Below, piece after piece: positions 12,356-44,835 of a DNA stretch of 64,000 nucleotides. The notes below the pieces were generated by a model. That model was given only the letters and a program-made list of their open reading frames with translations, did no database searches and had not been told where the DNA came from. The translations under genes were made by a program, and so were the position numbers. Within the stretch, counting starts at the first letter, position 1; every line of letters starts with the position of its first letter. Source of the stretch: Desulfobacter postgatei 2ac9 (GTDB taxonomy: Bacteria > Desulfobacterota > Desulfobacteria > Desulfobacterales > Desulfobacteraceae); NCBI RefSeq assembly GCF_000233695.2, contig NZ_CM001488.1, forward strand, positions 584,049 through 648,048. Direction: 5' to 3'.

Positions 12356-13135
12356 ATGAAGGATGACAAATTCAAAAAGTATCGATACTTTCTCAAAGAT
12401 AGTATTCGTAAAACAATTCCTTTCAAATTTACCGACCAAAACCTGGGCGTTCCAGTCCCTCCCATTGAAAAACCATATTCTGAGGGCGCAATATTAATAG
12501 ATCTTCCTGGTCCTGATGAATGGAATAGGATTTCCCAGACAGATCTCACGCATGCCATAGGCAACAGAAAGAGTCATCGGGTTTATTTGAATCAAAGCCT
12601 GACATTAGAAGAGCTGGCTTACCTGTTGTGGTGTACCCAGGGTGTCAGGGGAAAAAGATTTCACGGACATGCATACAGGAATGTGCCGTCCGCCGGCTGT
12701 CGTCATGCTATTGAAACTTATCTTGCCGTTTTTAATGTGGATGACATTGAGCCAGGCGTTTACAGATATTTACCCCTTTCCCATCAACTCGTATTTGAAT
12801 TCAAGGATGACCTGCTGTCAGAAAAAATGATCATTGCTTCCCTTAACCAGTCCTATCCGGGCAAATCGGCTGTTACGTTCATCTGGTCTGCCATACCGTA
12901 TAGAATGGAATGGCGGTATGGTTTGGCAGCGCATAAGGTCATTGCTCTGGATGCAGGCCATGTTTGCCAGAATCTATACCTTGCCTGTGAAACGATTGAT
13001 GCCGGGACCTGTGCGATTGCCGCTTACGATCAGGAAGAATTAGATGAACTGCTCGGTCTTGATGGTGAAGAAGAGTTTGCGATATACCTTGCCCCTGTGG
13101 GAAAGGTAAAAAAAAATCATCAGAATTATGTATAA
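12356..13135 (+). CDS. SagB/ThcOx-type nitroreductase-fold dehydrogenase
   Basis: FMN-dependent oxidoreductase of the SagB family. Members oxidise azolines in peptide natural products, but many stand-alone copies have unknown substrates. Visible are the flavin-phosphate segment GNRKSHRVY, LAYLLWCTQGVRG, RNVPSAGCRHAIETY and the C-terminal GHVCQNLYLAC. I choose the ATG at 12356 because AGGGG lies six bases upstream; a longer start at 12308 has no such site. That gives 259 residues. No cyclodehydratase, precursor peptide or transporter is nearby, so natural-product work is not supported here. Confidence 0.85.
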   Translation: MKDDKFKKYRYFLKDSIRKTIPFKFTDQNLGVPVPPIEKPYSEGAILIDLPGPDEWNRISQTDLTHAIGNRKSHRVYLNQSLTLEELAYLLWCTQGVRGKRFHGHAYRNVPSAGCRHAIETYLAVFNVDDIEPGVYRYLPLSHQLVFEFKDDLLSEKMIIASLNQSYPGKSAVTFIWSAIPYRMEWRYGLAAHKVIALDAGHVCQNLYLACETIDAGTCAIAAYDQEELDELLGLDGEEEFAIYLAPVGKVKKNHQNYV

Positions 13136-20551: not shown

Positions 20552-21484
20552 TCAAACCACAATATTGAGACCCGGAATCTGATCGGGTGTTTTCATGGAA
20601 AGCATTAAACTGGTCGGGGCAATTTGTTCCGGTCGGGCCACTTGGCAGTCGATATTTCCTGCCTGATATCCGATTCCTGCCAGACGCTGTCTCAACTCTG
20701 AAATTCTTGGGGCAAGGTAATCACAGCTTGCCTGATTTTCCAATAAAAATCGGCCGGCAATGGTTTTATCCAGAATGGAAAAATCTGCCCGTAAGGGGCC
20801 AAGGGCGGTCATGTTCAATAAAAAGGAAATACTGAGCATCTTTTTTTCTGTATCTGCTGTGCCTCTCTTTCCCATGTCTATCATGAGCTGGCCGAAATCA
20901 AAACCACCTTCCCGCCAGACAGGAAAGGGCATCAGAAATCGTACGCCATCCTGACTTTGCCCACTATCCCCTGATTTGACATTTAACTGGGCAAAATTAT
21001 CCAACGCCTCTGAAATATGTTTCAATACAGAGGCTTTTGCCGGATCACCTTCTGTGCCGGCAAGGGATAAAGAGGCAGCTTTTAAGTCCTGGGTCGCCAA
21101 TTGTTTGATCTCATGCGCAACCGTTTTTTTATCCCCGGCCTTTTCAAGAGCGGTTGCGAGTTTCTTTTCAAAGCCTAAGCCCATATTTTTTATTACTTTG
21201 GACAGGAACTGATCATCCCGGACATCGGATTTCAGGGAAAGTTCCATAAGGATATCACTCAGAATCGGTTCCTGGGTCTGGCTGAGCGCACTCAATCCCT
21301 GGAAAATTTTTGCCAGTGAAAAAGATTGGGAAAAGGTCCTCTGAAAGGAGTTATCCGCCTCTGGACGTGGGTTTGAATCCGGGACAATCTGGCCGGGCTT
21401 TAAATTCATGATACCTGACAGTTTGGAGTGTTCCTGGCTGCTGCCGCTAAGTATCAGGGACGTAAGGGGATGGCTGGGAATCAT
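20552..21484 (-). CDS. FliK-like hook-length control protein (second copy)
   Basis: 310-residue protein. The N-terminal half has no recognisable domain and is rich in Ser, Gln and Lys. The C-terminal about 110 residues (LLNMTALGPLRADFSILD, then FLLENQASCDYLAPRISEL) have the form of the FliK C-terminal domain, which contacts FlhB. It overlaps its neighbour upstream by ATGA and abuts the FhlB-like gene downstream, which suits a partner pair: a FliK-like and an FlhB-like protein. The canonical long FliK is at 42835-44835. The assignment is by pattern only. Confidence 0.6.
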   Translation of the reverse strand: MIPSHPLTSLILSGSSQEHSKLSGIMNLKPGQIVPDSNPRPEADNSFQRTFSQSFSLAKIFQGLSALSQTQEPILSDILMELSLKSDVRDDQFLSKVIKNMGLGFEKKLATALEKAGDKKTVAHEIKQLATQDLKAASLSLAGTEGDPAKASVLKHISEALDNFAQLNVKSGDSGQSQDGVRFLMPFPVWREGGFDFGQLMIDMGKRGTADTEKKMLSISFLLNMTALGPLRADFSILDKTIAGRFLLENQASCDYLAPRISELRQRLAGIGYQAGNIDCQVARPEQIAPTSLMLSMKTPDQIPGLNIVV

Positions 21485-22080
21485 CTGGACTTCTCCATTG
21501 CAATAAACTTTTCTTTGAGGTCAATGACAAGCGAAACCTCCCTTCTGGGTATGGAAAGCCTTTCTGCAATGGTGTCAACATCCATCTTCTGATAATAAAG
21601 ATCTATGATCCGCTGCTGTTGATCAAGGAGATCGGTCTCTTTGTGAAAAAAAGCAGATCCTCCCTTGGGCAGGGCATTCAGCAGGGACTTATGCTGATTT
21701 TCAAGCTGGCTGTATAGGGTGTTGGCCCGGGATAAAAGCAGATTGATGCTGATGATTTTTGAATCCAGGGACTGATCAAGTTTCCGGGTCAGTGTCTGTT
21801 TTTCCTGTACCAGCCGCTCAAACTCCATGGCCGCACTCTTTGACGCTTCCAAAATAGGTTCGATAATCTCAGACGCTTCCGTCAGAACCTCCCTGGCCAT
21901 AACCTGGGCTTTTTCACGGGTCTGGGCGGCAATGTCGCCAAGGTCAGTTCCCTGTATCGGCTTGGGATTGCGTTGAAGCCGGTTGGCCCGTCGGATAAAG
22001 AGAAGCAGCAGAAAGATTAAGAACAGATCAATGATAAGTGAAAGTAAAACAAGCAATTCGGTGGGGACCTTTAGCATCAT
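21481..22080 (-). CDS. Membrane-anchored coiled-coil protein, DUF2802-like
   Basis: 199 residues. One N-terminal membrane helix (LLVLLSLIIDLFLIFLLLLF, about residues 8-27) is followed by basic residues, a long charged segment likely to form a coiled coil, and a short C-terminal helix-turn-helix-like end (DVDTIAERLSIPRREVSLV), as in DUF2802 proteins found next to flagellar and chemotaxis genes. The function is not established. It overlaps both neighbours by four bases, so it belongs to the fliA-linked operon. Confidence 0.6.
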   Translation of the reverse strand: MMLKVPTELLVLLSLIIDLFLIFLLLLFIRRANRLQRNPKPIQGTDLGDIAAQTREKAQVMAREVLTEASEIIEPILEASKSAAMEFERLVQEKQTLTRKLDQSLDSKIISINLLLSRANTLYSQLENQHKSLLNALPKGGSAFFHKETDLLDQQQRIIDLYYQKMDVDTIAERLSIPRREVSLVIDLKEKFIAMEKSR

Positions 22081-22373
22081 ACCGTGATATCTAAAAGTCG
22101 GCCCGATCCATCGGGGTCCGGCGGCAGGTCATCTTTGGAAGGCTGTTTTTTTGCACGTTTGGCTTTAAGCACCTCTTGTCGCTTTTCTTTTTCCTGTTTC
22201 AAAGAGAGTGTTTCTTCGCTTTCCTGAACAGTTGTATTTTCCACCACCTGGTGATTTTGATGTTGTATGGCTGCCTGGTCAGGATCCGGTTTTGGGGACT
22301 GAATCTGCTGGGCCAAATCCTGGGCAATACCGGATTGCTGAAAAATCTGGTTATGTCCATGAACTGTGGTCAT
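22077..22373 (-). CDS. Small polar protein of unknown function
   Basis: 98 residues, very polar (Gln, Lys, Asp, Glu rich) with no membrane segment or known motif. A basic stretch, KRQEVLKAKRAKKQPSKDD, precedes a short hydrophobic end. It overlaps the next gene by four bases and follows the FliL-like gene by 12, so it is translated with a flagellar operon. I do not recognise a family and assign no function. The overlaps are the main evidence that it is real. Confidence 0.6.
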   Translation of the reverse strand: MTTVHGHNQIFQQSGIAQDLAQQIQSPKPDPDQAAIQHQNHQVVENTTVQESEETLSLKQEKEKRQEVLKAKRAKKQPSKDDLPPDPDGSGRLLDITV

Positions 22374-22385
22374 TTGTTTCCAGTG

Positions 22386-23855
22386 TTAAGTTGCTTTAAA
22401 AGATTTAAAACTAATCTTTTCAATATATTGGGGCGGCAACACCTTTTTCAATGAGGCCTCCACACCCGATAGCAGATCAGCTTCCGTCACATCATTGTTT
22501 TTTTCCGACACCAGCCGGGTCTGGATAGCGCCGTAAATTAAGTCCCGGTAAAAGGCAAGATTACTGTTTATTTCATCATAAGCCCTTTGATCTGAATAAT
22601 CAATAGAGACATCTGCATACACATAGGTCATGGTCCGGCTTTGATCTGAGGCAAGAATGATAAAATCTGTTAACAAAATTGTTCCTGGCCTGCGGCTGTG
22701 CGCGGGAGCCGCTATCTTTGCAGGAAAATTAGCCTGGCCGTCCCGGATAAGATCAATTTCGGTCAAGGAGGCGGTCTGTTTTTTCGGCAGTGGCACAGGC
22801 GCACTTGAAAAAAACAGAAAATAACTTAATGGAACGGATATGCCCATGAACAGCAGGACAGAAGCGGCAGCAAGCATCACCTTTGACTTGAGAAAGGCTT
22901 TGATCCGCCCGCCTTTTTTCGACGGTCCTGCTGGGACAGGTCTATTTTCGCCGGAAATTTCAGCACCTTCGATGCCTTCCAGAACCACCTGATCCGAGTC
23001 GGATTCCAGGTTATCAAACGCATCATCGAGCTGGTCCTCCATATCAGGCGCATCGTCTTCTCCCCCAATATCGCCGAGTAGATCTTCATCCTCCTGATCT
23101 GCGGCCATGAGAAGAGTATTGATGTCGTCCTGAGATATGAGGATATCCTCATCTCCATCCAGCAACCCATCCTGCTCATCTGACTGCTGGAGAAGGGCAT
23201 CAATATCTTCCTGCGTTACGTCATCATCCGCGCCGCGACCATCTATTGCAGACATCAGGTCTATCCTGTACGGCAGATTATCCTCTCGATCGTCCCCGGC
23301 ATCCGCTTCCGGAACCTCCTGGGCCGGCAGGCCGGCCTCAATCAGCGCATCCATGGCGTCCTGGGTGATTATACAATCGGTCACCTCTGCAGCCTGGCTT
23401 TCATCTATGGGTTCATCAAAGGGGTCTTTTTCCTGGCCCAAGGCTTCCGTGGCCGGGGTGTCGTTAACGATCACAGACTCGGTCGTTTTCTCCGCCACTT
23501 CGTCCTGGTTTGATTGCGCTTCTAAATCCTCAGGTTCAGACTCGGATGGATCATTCCCCTGGGTATCGCCACTGATTGCACCCTGAATATCTTCCAGTGA
23601 GATCAATTCGTCATCGTCATCTGAATCAGACTCCTTAGAATCATTCATGAATTGGTCAATATCATCCTGGGATAATTCACCGCCATCGTCTTCAAGATTG
23701 TCATCGTCATCCAGAAGCGGCCCGTTGAGCAGACTGTCTATATCATCTTGGGACAACTCGCCGGCATCGTCATCTCCGGAAGAGATATCCAGCAGTTTAT
23801 CAATATCATCCTGGGAAATTAGATCATCTTCTTTTTCCAAAATCGGGTCTGACAT
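22386..23855 (-). CDS. FliL-like membrane protein with seven FliM-type N-terminal motifs
   Basis: 489 residues. The first about 310 are strongly acidic and cytoplasmic and carry seven copies of a motif like LSQDDIDSLL: at about residues 12-22, 34-43, 61-70, 84-94, 162-172, 213-222 and 239-249. FliM in this window begins MSEILSQDEVDSLLDGL, the conserved FliM N-terminal (CheY-binding) type of sequence. A basic stretch and one membrane helix (about 327-349) follow. The last about 120 residues resemble the periplasmic domain of FliL (TILLTDFIILASD, MTYVYADVSIDY, VLPPQYIEKISF). A separate ordinary FliL is at 41932-42603. A role at the C-ring/stator boundary is inferred. Confidence 0.75.
   Translation of the reverse strand: MSDPILEKEDDLISQDDIDKLLDISSGDDDAGELSQDDIDSLLNGPLLDDDDNLEDDGGELSQDDIDQFMNDSKESDSDDDDELISLEDIQGAISGDTQGNDPSESEPEDLEAQSNQDEVAEKTTESVIVNDTPATEALGQEKDPFDEPIDESQAAEVTDCIITQDAMDALIEAGLPAQEVPEADAGDDREDNLPYRIDLMSAIDGRGADDDVTQEDIDALLQQSDEQDGLLDGDEDILISQDDINTLLMAADQEDEDLLGDIGGEDDAPDMEDQLDDAFDNLESDSDQVVLEGIEGAEISGENRPVPAGPSKKGGRIKAFLKSKVMLAAASVLLFMGISVPLSYFLFFSSAPVPLPKKQTASLTEIDLIRDGQANFPAKIAAPAHSRRPGTILLTDFIILASDQSRTMTYVYADVSIDYSDQRAYDEINSNLAFYRDLIYGAIQTRLVSEKNNDVTEADLLSGVEASLKKVLPPQYIEKISFKSFKAT
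23109..23822 (-). repeat. Seven coding repeats of a FliM-like N-terminal peptide
   Basis: Coding repeats within the FliL-like gene. Copies 1, 2, 3, 6 and 7 keep the (S/T)Q(D/E)DI(D/N) core; copies 4 (LISLEDIQGAI) and 5 (IITQDAMDALI) are diverged. The first four are about 20-27 residues apart; then come gaps of about 70 and 50 residues. The repetition is of short motifs in acidic linkers, not a perfect DNA repeat. Confidence 0.75.
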
Positions 23856-23943: not shown

Positions 23944-24690
23944 TTATTTCCCATAACTATCCAGGCTTGCGTGCAGTTTCACCAGAACAGCCGTATGGAT
24001 TTGACATATCCTGGATTCCGTCAAAGACAAAACCTCTCCAATTTCTTTCAAGGTCAGTTCGTCATAATAGTAAAGAGAGATAACAATCTGCTCTTTTTCC
24101 GTTAATTTTTTGATGGCCTTCACCAGAACGGATTTCAATTCTGCTCGGTAAAAGTCGTTTTCGGGATTTTCGTCATCTCTGAGTCCGGCCTGAAAACGGG
24201 TCTGGTAAGAAATATCATTTGTTTTCGTCTTGATGAAATCATCCAGGCTGAGGACAGCAGCCCCATGGATATCGGTCAGCATATTCTGGTAAGTTTCCAG
24301 ATCGACACCCAACGCCTCACTGATTTCATCGTCATCGGCCGGCCGCCCCTTTTCATCCTCAATGGTTTTTGCAGCCCGGGCGATATTCTGGATTTTTTTT
24401 CGCATGGACCTTGAATAGGTGTCCATGCTGCGCAATTCATCCAGAATGGCCCCTTTAATACGATACCGGGCATAGGTCTCAAGGCTGACATGTTTGCCTG
24501 GATCAAATTTATCCACCGCATCAATGAGGCCCAGGGAACCTGCTGACATCAGTTCGTCAAAAAGCACACTGGCGGGCAGACGCATGGCAAACCGGGAGGC
24601 AATGTACCGGACCAGATAAGCGTAATTGACAATACTCTCCTGTCGCCAGGTTTCCCACGCCGCTTGATTTTTTTTAAGGGGGTATTTCAT
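23944..24690 (-). CDS. fliA: Flagellar sigma factor FliA (sigma-28)
   Basis: Alternative sigma factor for late flagellar genes. Region 2 is visible (YIASRFAMRLPASVLFDEL, then AGSLGLIDAVDKFDP and YARYRIKGAILDELR), and region 4 with a helix-turn-helix (LTEKEQIVISLYYYDELTLK, then IGEVLSLTESRICQIH). Length 248, typical. The nearest Shine-Dalgarno sequence, AAGGAA, lies about 14 bases before the ATG, so initiation may be weak. It follows flhG by 41 bases in the usual flhA-flhF-flhG-fliA order. A matching promoter lies before flaG. Confidence 0.95.
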   Translation of the reverse strand: MKYPLKKNQAAWETWRQESIVNYAYLVRYIASRFAMRLPASVLFDELMSAGSLGLIDAVDKFDPGKHVSLETYARYRIKGAILDELRSMDTYSRSMRKKIQNIARAAKTIEDEKGRPADDDEISEALGVDLETYQNMLTDIHGAAVLSLDDFIKTKTNDISYQTRFQAGLRDDENPENDFYRAELKSVLVKAIKKLTEKEQIVISLYYYDELTLKEIGEVLSLTESRICQIHTAVLVKLHASLDSYGK

Positions 24691-24731: not shown

Positions 24732-25625
24732 TTATTGGGCCGCTTCAAACACCCGGTTCATAAAAAAGGTCAGGTTTCCCTGGTTCTGGTTCGTCCTGTC
24801 GTCATTGAGCAGATTCTTTGCAAGATCAGCGATGGCATCGGCTGCAGGACTGTGTTTTACCATATCTAAAAGGATGCTGCGGTTTCGAACGGCCTTTTGC
24901 AGAGCCGGATCAAAAGGGACATGTCCACAGTATTCAAGAACCACATTTTTTAAAAATTTATCCAGGGCGTTGCTTAAAGATCCGTAAACTTTTTTGGCCC
25001 CGGTTCGGTTCTCCGCCATGTTCACCACCAGTTTGAAATACTTTATCCCATAATTTTGAGACATGACCTTCATCAGGGCATAGGCATCGGTGATTGAGGT
25101 GGGTTCCGTGGTTGCCACCACCAGGCACTGGTCTGCAGATGCGTTAAAATAGAGCACATTGGATGAAATACCGGCGCCTGTATCCAGCAAAATAATATCT
25201 GCCATGTTGGAAAAAGCCTCAAACTCCGACAGCAGGGTCAATTTCTCACCTTCACTGAAATGGGTCAAATCGGCAAACCCGGATCCCCCCGGGAGAATAC
25301 CGATGCCATGATTCGTTGTTACCATCACCTGGGATAATGTTTTTTCCCCGGATATCAGATGGCGGATGTTATATTTGTGTCTTAGGTTAAATACGATGTC
25401 AATATTGGCCAGGCCCACATCCGTATCTATGATCACCACCCGTTTGCCGAGTCGTGTCATGGCCACGGCCAGATTTCCCACAATATTGGTTTTACCCACC
25501 CCGCCTTTACCGCTGGTCACCGCAATGACCCTGGGGTATGAATTGCCATTGGAAGCCCCGTTCCGTTCCCGTCTTTGCATCGCACTTGTCCTGGCTATCT
25601 GCCGCAGTCCTTTTGCTTGATCCAC
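24732..25625 (-). CDS. flhG: Flagellar number regulator FlhG (MinD-like ATPase)
   Basis: ParA/MinD-family ATPase that limits flagellar number and antagonises FlhF. The deviant Walker A motif is TSGKGGVGKTN (about residues 36-46); Walker B is IILLDTGAGI. The N-terminal DQAKGLRQIA matches the FlhF-activating helix of FlhG, and a C-terminal amphipathic segment is likely for membrane binding. The start is GTG with AAAGGAG upstream and directly abuts the flhF stop. 297 residues. Confidence 0.93.
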   Translation of the reverse strand: MDQAKGLRQIARTSAMQRRERNGASNGNSYPRVIAVTSGKGGVGKTNIVGNLAVAMTRLGKRVVIIDTDVGLANIDIVFNLRHKYNIRHLISGEKTLSQVMVTTNHGIGILPGGSGFADLTHFSEGEKLTLLSEFEAFSNMADIILLDTGAGISSNVLYFNASADQCLVVATTEPTSITDAYALMKVMSQNYGIKYFKLVVNMAENRTGAKKVYGSLSNALDKFLKNVVLEYCGHVPFDPALQKAVRNRSILLDMVKHSPAADAIADLAKNLLNDDRTNQNQGNLTFFMNRVFEAAQ

Positions 25626-26729
25626 CTAATCTCCTTTGGGCTCTTTTTTCAGAATTATCTTCAAAAGCTCATGGCGGTCCGGGATAATCAAATCCTCGGG
25701 CACCTTCTGGCCGTTGGTCACCAATGAAACCGGCAAGTCATAGCTTGCCGCCTGGTCAAGGATTTTCCCGCATCTTTTTGTCTCATCAGTTTTTGTAAAC
25801 ACATAGGTGTCTGGATTAAATACGGAAAAAGCAGATGCCGCTTCTTTCATATTAATCAATTCAGAGGTAACACTCAAGGTTAAATGAACACTGATCTGGA
25901 AATCATTTCTGACCAGTTCAAGGATTTCGTCAATTTTTTCCTTATCGTAATGGCTGTGTCCGGCCGTATCAATAAGCACCAGATCCATGGATTTCATCCG
26001 GTCCAGGGCGCATGCCAGATCCTGGCGTGAAAAGGCAGGCATACAGGGCAGCCCCATGATGCCGGCATACGCTTTGAGCTGCTCAAAGGCCCCGATCCTG
26101 TAATTGTCTATGGAGACTAAGCCCACCTTCATTTTCCGGGTAAAACTTAAACAGGCCGCCAGTTTGGCAATGGTGGTGGTTTTTCCCACACCGGTCGGCC
26201 CCACAAAGGCCGCCACCTGGGGGAGCCCCGAAGCGTTATGCCGTGTGAAAAAATCCTTGGTGCGAAATTGATCCAGGCAAAGGCCCATAACGCTCTTTTT
26301 CAACTGCTTCATTTGTGTTGCCGTATCAAGGGTTTTATCCAAATCTAAGGCAGCTTTTTGAACAAGATCTGCCGCCAGGCGTTCGCTGACGCCGCAGCGA
26401 AGCAGGGATGCCAGCACACCTACGGACTCAAAATGGTTGCACAGAATGGAGGATACCCCGGAACCAAAACCGGCTACAGAAAGGATGTCTTTTATTTGCG
26501 CAAGATCTGACTTAAGGGCTTTCACATCCTGGACAAGAGGGGATTCAGGTTTGTTGTCACCGGTCGAAGGGATTGCGGCCTCAACCTCGAACATGGTCTT
26601 TGCGTAGGGATCTCTTGGGGATTTGGGCACCTTTCGGGTGGAAAGAATCATGGCATCGGGCCCAAGTTCCTCCTTGATCCCGGCAAGGGCGGTCTGGATA
26701 TTCGGTGCCCTGAAAATTTTTTTATCCAT
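25626..26729 (-). CDS. flhF: Flagellar SRP-like GTPase FlhF
   Basis: GTPase that sets the site of polar flagellum assembly. The B domain begins KIFRAPNIQTALAGIKEELG. The NG domain shows the P-loop GPTGVGKTTTIAKLA and downstream nucleotide motifs DTAGHSHYD and TKTDET. 367 residues, within range. It overlaps flhA upstream by eight bases. Confidence 0.95.
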   Translation of the reverse strand: MDKKIFRAPNIQTALAGIKEELGPDAMILSTRKVPKSPRDPYAKTMFEVEAAIPSTGDNKPESPLVQDVKALKSDLAQIKDILSVAGFGSGVSSILCNHFESVGVLASLLRCGVSERLAADLVQKAALDLDKTLDTATQMKQLKKSVMGLCLDQFRTKDFFTRHNASGLPQVAAFVGPTGVGKTTTIAKLAACLSFTRKMKVGLVSIDNYRIGAFEQLKAYAGIMGLPCMPAFSRQDLACALDRMKSMDLVLIDTAGHSHYDKEKIDEILELVRNDFQISVHLTLSVTSELINMKEAASAFSVFNPDTYVFTKTDETKRCGKILDQAASYDLPVSLVTNGQKVPEDLIIPDRHELLKIILKKEPKGD

Positions 26730-40925: not shown

Positions 40926-41924
40926 TTACCTCTTACAGTCGGTTACAATTTTATCTTTAATCTTAAATGCCTGAAAACCCCGCTGAACACCAATGAATCC
41001 TGTCAGTTTCACAAGCCCTCCCACAAAGCAGGGTAATGGGTCGGATGCGTCGTTATCCAGTTGGATGACGTCACCGGGCTGCATATACAAGAGCCGTTCA
41101 CCGGTGATCTCTGTTTTACCCAGAAGAATTCTTAAATCCACCTGGGAATTGAGGATCACCTCTTCAATCATCCGCCGCCAGTTGTAGTCGATTTCTTCAA
41201 TTTCCGTCTGGACACCGGATGACAGTTTGTTGCGCATGGGTTCGATCATGGAATAGGGATAGCAGACCACAAGATTCCCTGCGGCCTGCTCCAGTTCGAT
41301 TTCAAACCGGGTAACGATGACAAGGTCTGTGGGCAGTACAATGGCCGTGAACTGGGGGTTCATTTCCGAACGGATCAGGGATGCTTTGACCAGCTCTATG
41401 GGGGCCCAGGAGGCCTCAATGTTTTTGAGAACCGCCAGGACTGCCTTTTTAATCATCACCTCTTCAATGCGGGTAAATTCGCGGCCCTCCACCCTTGCTT
41501 TTCCCAATGCTTCTCCACCAAAAAAAGTATCAATGAGGTTATAAACCAGCTGGCTTTCAAACACCACCAGACCATGTCCCCTTAACGGCTCCATCCTGAA
41601 TACGTGAAGACTTGTGGGCACAGGAAGGCTGCGGACGAATTCAGAAAACTTCAGGGTGTCAAAGGGATTGGCAGACACATCCACATTGGTCTGGAGCAGT
41701 GAAGACAATGTGGCCCGAACTTCCCTGGAGAGACGTTCATTAATAACGTCAAAGGTAGGCATTCTTGCCCTGACCACCTTGTCCTGGCTGGTGAAATCAT
41801 AGGCAACAACACCTTCAATCGCCTCCTCATCAATTTCCGGAATATCGGTCTCAGTGTCTACTTCTCCGGAATCCAGTCCGTCTAGTAGACTGTCAACCTC
41901 GTCCTGGGATAGAATTTCACTCAT
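40926..41924 (-). CDS. fliM: Flagellar switch protein FliM
   Basis: C-ring switch protein that binds phosphorylated CheY. The N-terminal CheY-binding motif is MSEILSQDEVDSLLDGL. The middle domain shows LSREVRATLSSLLQTNVD and FRMEPLRGHGLVVFESQ, and a C-terminal SpoA domain follows. 332 residues. The N-terminal motif is the same type repeated seven times in the FliL-like protein at 22386-23855. Confidence 0.96.
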   Translation of the reverse strand: MSEILSQDEVDSLLDGLDSGEVDTETDIPEIDEEAIEGVVAYDFTSQDKVVRARMPTFDVINERLSREVRATLSSLLQTNVDVSANPFDTLKFSEFVRSLPVPTSLHVFRMEPLRGHGLVVFESQLVYNLIDTFFGGEALGKARVEGREFTRIEEVMIKKAVLAVLKNIEASWAPIELVKASLIRSEMNPQFTAIVLPTDLVIVTRFEIELEQAAGNLVVCYPYSMIEPMRNKLSSGVQTEIEEIDYNWRRMIEEVILNSQVDLRILLGKTEITGERLLYMQPGDVIQLDNDASDPLPCFVGGLVKLTGFIGVQRGFQAFKIKDKIVTDCKR

Positions 41925-41931
41925 GGCACCA

Positions 41932-42603
41932 TCACTGCATTATAAAATTGGTAAAATAAATTTGCCTTATGGCAACTTTGGGAAAAATCTGATTAATTCG
42001 GTCGAGAAGTGCAAATTTCAGTTTAAGTTTGCCATGGGGGCTTCGCAGATCCATCCAGCTCATCTGCCGCATCTGGCTTTCAATTATTTTTCTTATCCTG
42101 GGCTCCATGGTATAGACCTGCCTTCGAAACTCGGGATCTATCATTTCAAGGGCGATGCCCATGGATATGTAATGCATGTTTGAATCTTGTTTTAAAAGAA
42201 TTTGTTCAAAGGGTTCCAGCTGCACAATATCCTCAAATATCGCTTTGTTCTGGTCTTTCAGGGCCGCCTGAATGCTTTCCTCAGTCACGACATTTTCAGC
42301 AACCGGCTGTTCAGGGACCTCTTTTGTCTTACCGCCAAATAAAAAAAAGAACACACCGGCACCAATCCCGCCCAATAAAAGGAGAAACGACAGGAGAATA
42401 ATGATCAGTTTTTTCTTTCCTGACAGCAGTCTGCCGATCAATCCCTTTTTGACAGGTCCTTCTTCTGAAACCCCGCCACCATTGTTTATGGATTCGGTCA
42501 GTTCATCGCCTTCGAGTTCTTCCAGCAGATCTTCAGCCACAACACCTCCCAAAATAGTCTGGTCCTTCATTTGCCGAGCTGGTCTTTGCAGGCTGCATTG
42601 CAA
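41932..42603 (-). CDS. fliL: Flagellar basal-body protein FliL
   Basis: Stator-associated single-pass protein. An acidic cytoplasmic N-terminus, one membrane helix (LIIILLSFLLLLGGIGAGVF, about residues 66-85) and a periplasmic stomatin-like domain with HYISMGIALEMIDPEFRRQV and the end QIYFTNFIMQ are visible. 223 residues. The start is uncertain: ATG at 42603 has AAGGG upstream and only a short leader from the sigma-54 promoter; ATG at 42570 has no clear ribosome site. Confidence 0.9.
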   Translation of the reverse strand: MQCSLQRPARQMKDQTILGGVVAEDLLEELEGDELTESINNGGGVSEEGPVKKGLIGRLLSGKKKLIIILLSFLLLLGGIGAGVFFFLFGGKTKEVPEQPVAENVVTEESIQAALKDQNKAIFEDIVQLEPFEQILLKQDSNMHYISMGIALEMIDPEFRRQVYTMEPRIRKIIESQMRQMSWMDLRSPHGKLKLKFALLDRINQIFPKVAIRQIYFTNFIMQ

Positions 42604-42834: not shown

Positions 42835-44835
42835 TTATGCAACAAAATGCAGCGAACCCCTGTTATTTATAGCCGCGGTATGATCCGTTAAATGATCTGC
42901 CGCCTCTTCCTGGGCATCGTCACCGGACCCGCGCTTTGTCTGCTTTTTTCCGGCTGACTGCCCCTGGGCCCGGGCATCGGCCATGGACTGCTGGAAATCG
43001 CTGCTCATATCAACTTCAAAGCTCTCAAGGCTGATACCGGAGGAAGAGAGCATGGTTTTGATTTCATTAACATTGGCTGCCAGAATATCTTTTGCTGACT
43101 GGTGTTCAGTAATCACGCTGATCTTTATGCCGTTCCCATTATGGTCAATGCTCATGTAGACCCGGCCTAATTCAGGGGGTTTTAGTTGCATCCGGATGGT
43201 GTCGTCTCCGGTATTGATTGATCGGACAATGCTTTTTCCCACCTGCCGGGTGACAAAGTCAGGCAGTGTGGAAAAGGCCTGCTCGGTGCGTTGTGTACCC
43301 GAAGTTCCCACACTCCCTGTCGTGGTTGATTTTTCCACGCCAAAAACAAGGGCATGGGCTTCTGAATTTTTGGACATTGTATCCCCTGACTGGGAATTTG
43401 TGGAGGCGGTCATCTTTTCCAGAGCAGCTGCATCGGCCTGGGTTGCCGTGGTGGAAATCTGTGATGCCGATTCCTTGCTTGTTCCTGCGGTGTCAGAAAA
43501 ACTGTTGGCGATTTTAAATGCATCATCAGAATCGGTTTTTCCTGTTTGAAGGTTACCGGAGGCACTATTTCCAACCGCAGAGGCCTCGGCAGCCGTTTTT
43601 GCACTCACCTCACGCCTGTTGATCTGATCCATGAACTGAACCTGGAACCGCTCCTCAATTTCTTTGACCATGGCGTCGGAACTTTCGCTAAGCGTTATGC
43701 TATAATCGACAGCTCCCTCACGCTCTTCTTGAAAATTCAGTCCGGAAAAAAATTGGTTAAGCAATCCGTGTCGGCCGGACCGGGTTGCGAGGGCATCAAA
43801 AGAATCGGTTGTAAATGTGTCTGATAATGATTGTTCAGTCTGGTTTGCCTGATTCTCTTCCAACAGGTTACGCTTCTGGGCAAAGGCATCAATTATCGTG
43901 GCCAGGGTCAACGGCTCGTCAGATGTTTCAATGAAAGAATCCAGATCAAGCTGTTGCAAAAGGGTGGTATAGGCATCGTCTTCATCTTTTGTCTGATAGG
44001 TCACGCCGGATTCACCGGCGGTATCCAGAAGTTGCTCAAGCTGTTCAATAAACGTATCAAAATCAAATCCACGGGTCCCTTCGGAGGCTTGATCCATGAT
44101 TGATGTCATTTCCTGATCATCCATGCCCATCATTGACAAAAGGGATTTGATATAGGGCAGATCAGAGGTGGGCATGAGCGTCTCTGCCGGGGTGATCTCT
44201 TCAGCTTCGGCAAGGGGCAGGTCAAACAGATCATCCATGAAACCGGCCACGGAGATCAGGCCGCCCCCCTCTTCAAGGCTCAGGGTCAGATCCGACAGCA
44301 TTTCCTCAACAGATGCCTGATCAAAACCAGCCTGAACAAGCAGATCGCCAAGGGCGTCAAGCCCCTCTTCATCCAGGGACAGATTGTCCAGATCGTAATT
44401 GGAAATGGATAAAAGCAGACTTTTTAATTCCGTAAGAAAGTCAGAACCCCCGCCATGTTCCAGGGCATCTTCAAGGTCTGAAACCTTTTGTTTAGTTGTT
44501 CGGACAGCAAAACGAGATTTTTCCACCGTGGATATTTCAGTGTTCTGTTCTTCGGTGGACAAGTTGGGCTTTTGCGCAGTGGTAAGCGGTGAGGCCTGCG
44601 TCTGAACACTGTTATCCTCTGAACGCCTGACATGGGTCTCTTGCTCAACGGTGTTTATCTCTCTTGAGCGTTCCATGCCTGAGTCCCGTTGCATGGCCTT
44701 GTCCAGCTGCCCCTGAAATGCAGAGACCGCAGCACCACTGTCTGTGGAAACAGTGCCGGTAGCGGTTGCACCCATGAGGGCGTCTGAAGAACGTCCTGTC
44801 AGTAACGCATTGATGTCTGAAACATTGGATAACAT
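42835..44835 (-). CDS. fliK: Flagellar hook-length control protein FliK
   Basis: Secreted molecular ruler of 666 residues. The long N-terminal and central region is acidic and low-complexity, rich in Ser, Thr, Asp and Glu. The C-terminal domain (TIRMQLKPPELGRVYMSIDH, then ITEHQSAKDILAANVNEIKT) is the FliK switch domain that acts on FlhB. AAAGG precedes the ATG, and a sigma-54 promoter lies about 50 bases upstream. A shorter FliK-like protein at 20552-21484 may share the task. Confidence 0.9.
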   Translation of the reverse strand: MLSNVSDINALLTGRSSDALMGATATGTVSTDSGAAVSAFQGQLDKAMQRDSGMERSREINTVEQETHVRRSEDNSVQTQASPLTTAQKPNLSTEEQNTEISTVEKSRFAVRTTKQKVSDLEDALEHGGGSDFLTELKSLLLSISNYDLDNLSLDEEGLDALGDLLVQAGFDQASVEEMLSDLTLSLEEGGGLISVAGFMDDLFDLPLAEAEEITPAETLMPTSDLPYIKSLLSMMGMDDQEMTSIMDQASEGTRGFDFDTFIEQLEQLLDTAGESGVTYQTKDEDDAYTTLLQQLDLDSFIETSDEPLTLATIIDAFAQKRNLLEENQANQTEQSLSDTFTTDSFDALATRSGRHGLLNQFFSGLNFQEEREGAVDYSITLSESSDAMVKEIEERFQVQFMDQINRREVSAKTAAEASAVGNSASGNLQTGKTDSDDAFKIANSFSDTAGTSKESASQISTTATQADAAALEKMTASTNSQSGDTMSKNSEAHALVFGVEKSTTTGSVGTSGTQRTEQAFSTLPDFVTRQVGKSIVRSINTGDDTIRMQLKPPELGRVYMSIDHNGNGIKISVITEHQSAKDILAANVNEIKTMLSSSGISLESFEVDMSSDFQQSMADARAQGQSAGKKQTKRGSGDDAQEEAADHLTDHTAAINNRGSLHFVA

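Follow-up and report, generated by a model that had tools for sequence, protein, structure and literature searches.

The N-terminal motif of the flagellar protein FliM is described as the CheY-binding site (sections of PMC6946799 and PMC7355467), and FlhG has been reported to contact the same N-terminus (an excerpt of PMC12826062), a binding that is also stated in a passage of PMC11620751. In Bacillus subtilis, according to the same excerpt of PMC12826062, FlhG is said to bind FliY and not FliM, hence the motif alone may not suffice. FliL has been described elsewhere as forming arcs or rings round MotB (part of PMC12222027). FipA, known from gammaproteobacteria, is a DUF2802 protein encoded after flhA-flhF-flhG-fliA, which helps FlhF to reach the pole and has the conserved residues G110, E126 and L129 (passages of PMC11620751). 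The genus Desulfobacter is reported to swim with a single polar flagellum, some strains being immobile (part of PMC8069399). In the open-licence PMC literature we found no description of a protein in which an array of FliM-type motifs is combined with FliL.

Such a protein is encoded in the window, i.e. the whole analysed stretch of 64,000 nucleotides from Desulfobacter postgatei 2ac9. Its architecture (a FliM-type array, a membrane helix and a FliL domain) is secure, and the protein is a FliL-domain paralog, hereafter FliL2, carrying a novel kind of cytoplasmic part. The open reading frame proposed in an earlier note on this DNA was confirmed at 22386..23855 with a length of 489 aa, and is composed of the following parts:

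22386..23855, minus strand: FliL2-array gene (P0001), ORF of 489 aa with an ATG start
22902..23855, minus strand: cytoplasmic region, residues 1-318, acidic and, judging from composition and low pLDDT, probably disordered; basic residues precede the membrane helix
23790..23819, minus strand: motif 1, ISQDDIDKLL, residues 13-22 (FliM-peptide score; model helix 15-22)
23727..23756, minus strand: motif 2, LSQDDIDSLL, residues 34-43 (FliM-peptide score; model helix 36-43)
23646..23675, minus strand: motif 3, LSQDDIDQFM, residues 61-70 (FliM-peptide score; model helix 63-73; genus identity 0.57, the lowest)
23574..23603, minus strand: degenerate motif, ISLEDIQGAI, residues 85-94 (score 12; without a model helix; genus identity 0.85)
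23340..23369, minus strand: motif 5, ITQDAMDALI, residues 163-172 (FliM-peptide score; model helix 165-173)
23190..23219, minus strand: motif 6, VTQEDIDALL, residues 213-222 (FliM-peptide score; model helix 215-223)
23109..23138, minus strand: motif 7, ISQDDINTLL, residues 240-249 (FliM-peptide score; model helix 242-250)
22812..22880, minus strand: predicted membrane helix, residues ~326-348 (helix 2-24 in the model of the C-terminal segment, where pLDDT is low)
22392..22685, minus strand: periplasmic FliL domain, residues ~391-488 (profile-profile, PDB profile and fold matches)

The earlier note had counted seven FliM-type peptides, of which six are clear, whereas the seventh (ISLEDIQGAI) is degenerate and its score of 12 is at the level of chance on its own, yet it shows a genus identity of 0.85. 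When residues 1-316 were scored with BLOSUM62 against the window's FliM peptide LSQDEVDSLL and compared with 3000 shuffles, the six motif matches obtained scores of 42, 36, 32, 32, 29 and 27. The seven best scores, the last of which (21) does not correspond to a motif, total 219, versus a mean of 99 and a maximum of 145 for the shuffles, and none of the 3000 shuffles reached the fifth-best score. A lone match in a shuffle may score up to 35, therefore the excess over chance resides in the count of good matches and not in each individual match. A consensus regular expression, composed after the motif was known, reported 7 copies in the array, compared to 0.005 expected from composition shuffles. 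BLOSUM62 was used because a weight matrix derived from just 8 distinct FliM peptides proved overly narrow; at the matrix cut-off corresponding to the seventh real score, the best match in 3289 of 5000 shuffles equalled or exceeded the threshold.

Among the other ORFs of the window with at least 120 codons, only FliM (46) and one chance match at 13025 (26) scored 24 or more. When the DNA of the genome was scanned for sequences encoding Q[DE][DE]I[DN], there were 14 matches, 5 inside the array and 9 outside, and among the latter there was no full motif in a long frame: three (L153, L161, L164) exhibit SQ[DE][DE]I[DN] with the paired hydrophobic end absent, and one (L159), lying in a frame of 27 aa, is motif-like without SQ. 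When the window protein was aligned with four of its 16 genus orthologs, picked for few repeats, identity to the window protein was 0.86 in the motif columns, with motif 3 at only 0.57, versus 0.59 in the linkers and 0.92 in the FliL domain. A generic acidic repeat, part of what the earlier note had named as refuting its interpretation, or a low-complexity artefact is ruled out by the shuffle scores, the genome pattern search and the stronger conservation of motifs than of linkers. Modelled with AlphaFold2 from its single sequence, the full-length protein reaches a mean pLDDT of only 46.9; this poor model places, with low confidence, a short helix at each of the six clear motifs and none at ISLEDIQGAI, with further helices at the motif-free positions 201-204 and 273-284.

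For the C-terminal part, Pfam by itself is weak: the whole window protein has no match at E<=1, including the FliM (PF02154) and SPOA (PF01052) domains, and the C-terminal part alone matches PF03748 with 14.7 bits (E 0.045), below the gathering cut-off of 24.6 bits. The same Pfam family was found at E<=0.1 in 6 of 16 FliL2 segments (best E 4.8e-8), and the ortholog in G037 lies above the cut-off with 32 bits. The hhalign comparison of 16 orthologous FliL2 segments with 14 FliL proteins confidently identified their relationship (probability 97.9, E 5.7e-13), and the FliL2 profile retrieved known FliL structures from the PDB (7sgn, E 2e-4; 9hmf, E 0.014) as well as the window's own normal FliL (E 3.2e-8). 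A 24-row AlphaFold2 model of the C-terminal segment has pLDDT of 74-95 in the blocks of the domain and below 50 in the linker. Foldseek searches with the domain model reported FliL for all of the top 11 PDB matches (TM normalized to the target 0.61-0.82), 7 of which are at E<=0.001. Any domain other than FliL is thus rejected by profile and fold, and the assignment made in the earlier note holds, as does its single membrane helix ahead of the C-terminal domain. By analogy with FliL elsewhere, FliL2 probably sits at the flagellar motor.

The gene is not adjacent to fliM; the FliL gene in that position is 41932-42603, whose PF03748 score of 62.8 bits bears out the claim that a normal FliL is present besides the array protein. 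The window FliM begins with MSEILSQDEVDSLLDGL, the same kind of sequence as the array motifs, as previously noticed. A ~306-aa lipoprotein-like protein outside the window (G000:C1:1850083-1850373(+), L002:1006-1923) also contains a FliL domain above the Pfam cut-off; it has relatives in G008, G010, G022 and G024, and in G010 and G024 it is the sole FliL match.

The array gene is located within a flagellar cluster, with FliR, FlhB, FlhA, FlhF, FlhG and then FliA encoded upstream, and the 98-aa protein, the 199-aa membrane protein, a FliK-like protein, an FlhB-tail protein and FlgF/G/A/H/I downstream. The relevant neighbours are:

25626..26729, minus strand: flhF, SRP-type GTPase (SRP54 GTPase domain; TIGR03499 above cut-off)
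24732..25625, minus strand: flhG, MinD-like ATPase and proposed ligand, two genes upstream of the array gene (best PDB relative FleN, E 1.4e-53)
23944..24690, minus strand: ORF directly upstream of the array gene, which we take to be fliA (sigma 28); position conserved across loci
22077..22373, minus strand: small protein of 98 aa, conserved across loci and encoded between FliL2 and the 199-aa gene
21481..22080, minus strand: 199-aa membrane protein resembling DUF2802/DUF6115 and possibly FipA-like (38 of 40 loci have a relative)
41932..42603, minus strand: normal FliL (PF03748, 62.8 bits)
40926..41924, minus strand: FliM (Pfam), with one N-terminal motif at 41883-41912

Two FliK-like proteins occur in this one cluster (42835-44835(-), 666 aa, and 20552-21484(-), 310 aa). 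Regions were read in 40 of the 51 FliL2-positive genomes, 11 being left out. If only ORFs with a match to window proteins are counted, flhG, fliA and FliL2 are consecutive in 37 of these 40. The three exceptions are due to an undetected FliA (L175), a gene split over frames (L190) and a contig end (L195). In such a large flagellar operon the proximity of flhG to the array gene is weak evidence for a ligand. Relatives of the 98-aa protein often begin with MTTIxxxNxVVQQ; at E<=1e-3 BLAST detected them at 15 of the 40 loci, every one of them array-bearing, with weaker probable relatives also at the motif-less loci L177 and L182.

The 199-aa protein possesses an N-terminal membrane helix, and its C-terminal end matches both DUF2802 and DUF6115 (each at E<=0.1 in 18 of 18 aligned family members, best E 1.5e-7 and 1.4e-9, respectively). 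An uncounted inspection by eye revealed the G/E/L residues of FipA at spacings of 16 and 3 residues in several members, with K in place of G in the window copy. The 199-aa protein may thus correspond to FipA, here outside the gammaproteobacteria; however, the window copy scores 14.7 bits against a DUF2802 cut-off of 33.5 and fits DUF6115 better, so the likeness to FipA is a lead only. If the 199-aa protein is FipA-like, FliL2 falls inside a module for polar number and placement of flagella.

P0001 itself matched 25 of 40 genomes, its own included; it was not found in any of the 10 genomes that have no PF03748 match. In the order sample of 193 genomes (own included) the FliL2 profile matched 51, the weakest of which may be plain FliL, with FliM found in 112 and CheA in 137; in the phylum sample of 296 genomes FliL2 matches numbered 38 (own included), and among the 18 of these loci that were read, motifs were present only in L063, a locus from the same order. 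Motifs were present at 29 of the 40 loci read in the order and absent from 11, those in L185 and L190 being visible only in other reading frames (with one clear motif in L190). The FliL2 frame of these two loci appears shifted, possibly through assembly errors. By regular expression the shortest arrays (L103, L104) have one motif and the longest (L201) about 17, and the number of motifs varies between arrays while the linkers drift.

A tree was built from 40 FliL2 domains (the window and 39 loci, L190 being left out) and 3 FliL rows as the outgroup; in it the 28 array-labelled rows form one clade with 99/99 support, whose sole further member is L185 (29 rows in total, i.e. the window and 28 loci); this tree has 22 weak inner branches out of 40 and three long rows, and a long outgroup row was flagged as meeting the FliL2 group. 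L185, the only row of the clade labelled motif-less, carries motifs in the shifted frame, hence one origin suffices for all arrays, and no loss of motifs was seen inside the clade by the tree and the other-frame reading of L185. The clade spans 15 family codes, over which the linkers diverged and the motifs were retained. This pattern, together with the identity of 0.86 in motif columns versus 0.59 in linkers within the genus, makes it very improbable that the cytoplasmic part is an acidic spacer that damps the motor, with motifs multiplied by tandem duplication and of little function, although a FliL N-terminal region can regulate the motor negatively (part of PMC10127578) and motif copy number varies widely.

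The identity of the ligand was approached by comparing FliM-positive with CheA-positive genomes of the order, in order to distinguish CheY from FlhG. CheA had no match in 19 of the 112 FliM genomes, and most of these 19 are drafts; CheW was also undetected in 18 of these 19 (G427 has CheW), and FlhF was above the cut-off in 16 and not in the other 3. The FliM N-terminus was readable in 18 of the 19 (loci L148, L149 and L238-L253; in G400 FliM runs off the contig), and each of the 18 retains the motif, which in G333 has T-K instead of S-Q; 17 of these 18 genomes also lack detectable CheW. Among the CheA-positive comparators 23 were fetched and 21 were readable (L257 and L259 are in the wrong frame), with the motif in 21 of 21. 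Thus the FliM motif does not follow CheA, and its retention suggests a role besides CheY binding, which is perhaps the binding of FlhG. The loss of chemotaxis genes may be recent; FliM and FliL2 are both absent from G498, whose genus code is that of G461. Without CheA another kinase could phosphorylate a CheY-like protein. Arrays occur in three of the 19 genomes (G461, G026, G400), all three without detectable CheA and CheW, and G394 is CheA-negative with a motif-less FliL2.

These data bear on the proposal, essentially that of the earlier note and rather unlikely in our estimate, that the array is an antenna or buffer which keeps phosphorylated CheY close to the C-ring and stators, and tunes the sensitivity of switching or acts as a decoy for FliM. 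The motif resembles the CheY-binding FliM peptide (sections of PMC6946799 and PMC7355467), and of the 29 genomes with an array at one of the 40 loci read, 26 have CheA. However, CheA is equally common where FliL2 is motif-less (10 of 11), i.e. it is absent from 3 of 29 array loci versus 1 of 11 motif-less loci, so that no link between the array and chemotaxis genes was seen, and the three array genomes without detectable CheA or CheW speak against this proposal. In PDB searches the window FliM N-terminus found a single match, the FliM peptide of 4iga (E 0.55), which we take to be a CheY complex, whereas residues 1-50 of the array protein retrieved no FliM peptide at E<=10 and no flagellar match. 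The claim of the earlier note that the motif points to CheY is therefore unsupported as stated: arrays exist where CheA and CheW are undetected, the FliM motif is kept in 18 of 18 CheA-negative genomes, and the same N-terminus is the reported contact of FlhG (an excerpt of PMC12826062), a ligand which that note did not mention and whose gene lies two genes upstream. The array and FliM data from CheA-negative genomes weaken CheY as the sole ligand, which is doubtful, without thereby proving FlhG; CheY as one ligand is possible.

FlhF and FlhG are also present at the 11 of 40 loci where FliL2 is motif-less, hence FlhG does not need the array. The FleQ domain PF06490, considered as a marker of an FlhG-FleQ branch, was set aside as ambiguous, with weak best matches in 10 of 12 genomes (E 9e-4 to 5e-7). 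Within the order the consensus of the array is SQDDIDxLL (191 copies) versus SQEEVDSLLxGL for FliM (28 of 30 FliM loci), both sets being chosen by regular expression, and this difference could reflect another affinity or another ligand. Copies inside one array also vary in sequence, which would fit differing preferences if the motifs form a shared docking platform for several proteins (FlhG, phosphorylated CheY, perhaps others), where competition couples number control to signalling, or if they serve a third partner. The report that a single FliM motif region binds both CheY and FlhG (in the excerpts cited above) favours this explanation, which is nonetheless the least specific one and has only putative partners, and we regard it as a possible but less likely alternative to a dock for FlhG.

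Ranked by likelihood, a dock for FlhG comes first, followed by a platform for shared or additional partners, the antenna for phosphorylated CheY and a mostly non-binding spacer. We tentatively favour, as the likeliest working explanation, that the FliL2 array is a motor-anchored, multivalent dock for FlhG, with FlhG inferred as the main ligand. The FliL domain would hold FliL2 in the membrane at the flagellar motor, and the flexible acidic tether would display several copies of the FliM N-terminal helix toward the cytoplasm, where their main ligand would be FlhG, a MinD-like protein that regulates how many flagella are made. By recruiting FliL2, a motor would trap FlhG at the pole, raise its concentration there and restrain FlhF at that site. 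The array may keep FlhG from other partners or pass it to them, may thereby help to keep the cell at one polar flagellum, and a larger number of motifs would mean a greater capacity or avidity for FlhG. An extension of the FlhG dock, which we consider speculative and somewhat unlikely, is a counting device: since each assembled polar motor would offer many high-avidity sites, their occupancy by FlhG would report an existing flagellum, with the number of motifs setting the threshold. If true, this would be a physical answer to the question of how FlhG senses the number of flagella.

The array protein unites two well-known flagellar modules that were kept together in one clade over 15 family codes, and it provides a natural multivalent probe for what the FliM N-terminal motif binds. 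If that motif binds FlhG, counting of flagella by FlhG becomes directly testable.

Compared with FliL (PF03748; 7sgn from H. pylori and 9hmf from C. jejuni), the array protein shares the cytoplasmic N-terminus, one membrane helix, the periplasmic fold and a homologous profile, but differs in having ~318 mostly acidic residues with the motif array ahead of the membrane, in being a second gene besides the normal FliL, and in its sub-threshold Pfam score (14.7 versus 24.6 bits). With the N-terminal EIDAL motif of FliM it shares the ten-residue core, on which the model places short helices with low confidence; in contrast to FliM it has many copies instead of one, lacks FliM and SPOA domains, and mostly exhibits DDI where EEV stands in array-type FliM of this order. 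FliY of Bacillus, which combines EIDAL with CheC-like and SPOA domains, is likewise a flagellar protein besides FliM in which the EIDAL motif occurs, and the FliY of B. subtilis interacts with FlhG (excerpt of PMC12826062), but FliY is a protein of the C-ring, whereas the array protein belongs to FliL and is located in the membrane. The likeness to FipA, the polar partner of FlhF, concerns not the array protein but its 199-aa neighbour, which shares the N-terminal membrane helix, a possibly DUF2802-like end and the position after flhA-flhF-flhG-fliA (passage of PMC11620751), and differs in that the window copy falls under the DUF2802 cut-off and matches DUF6115 better.
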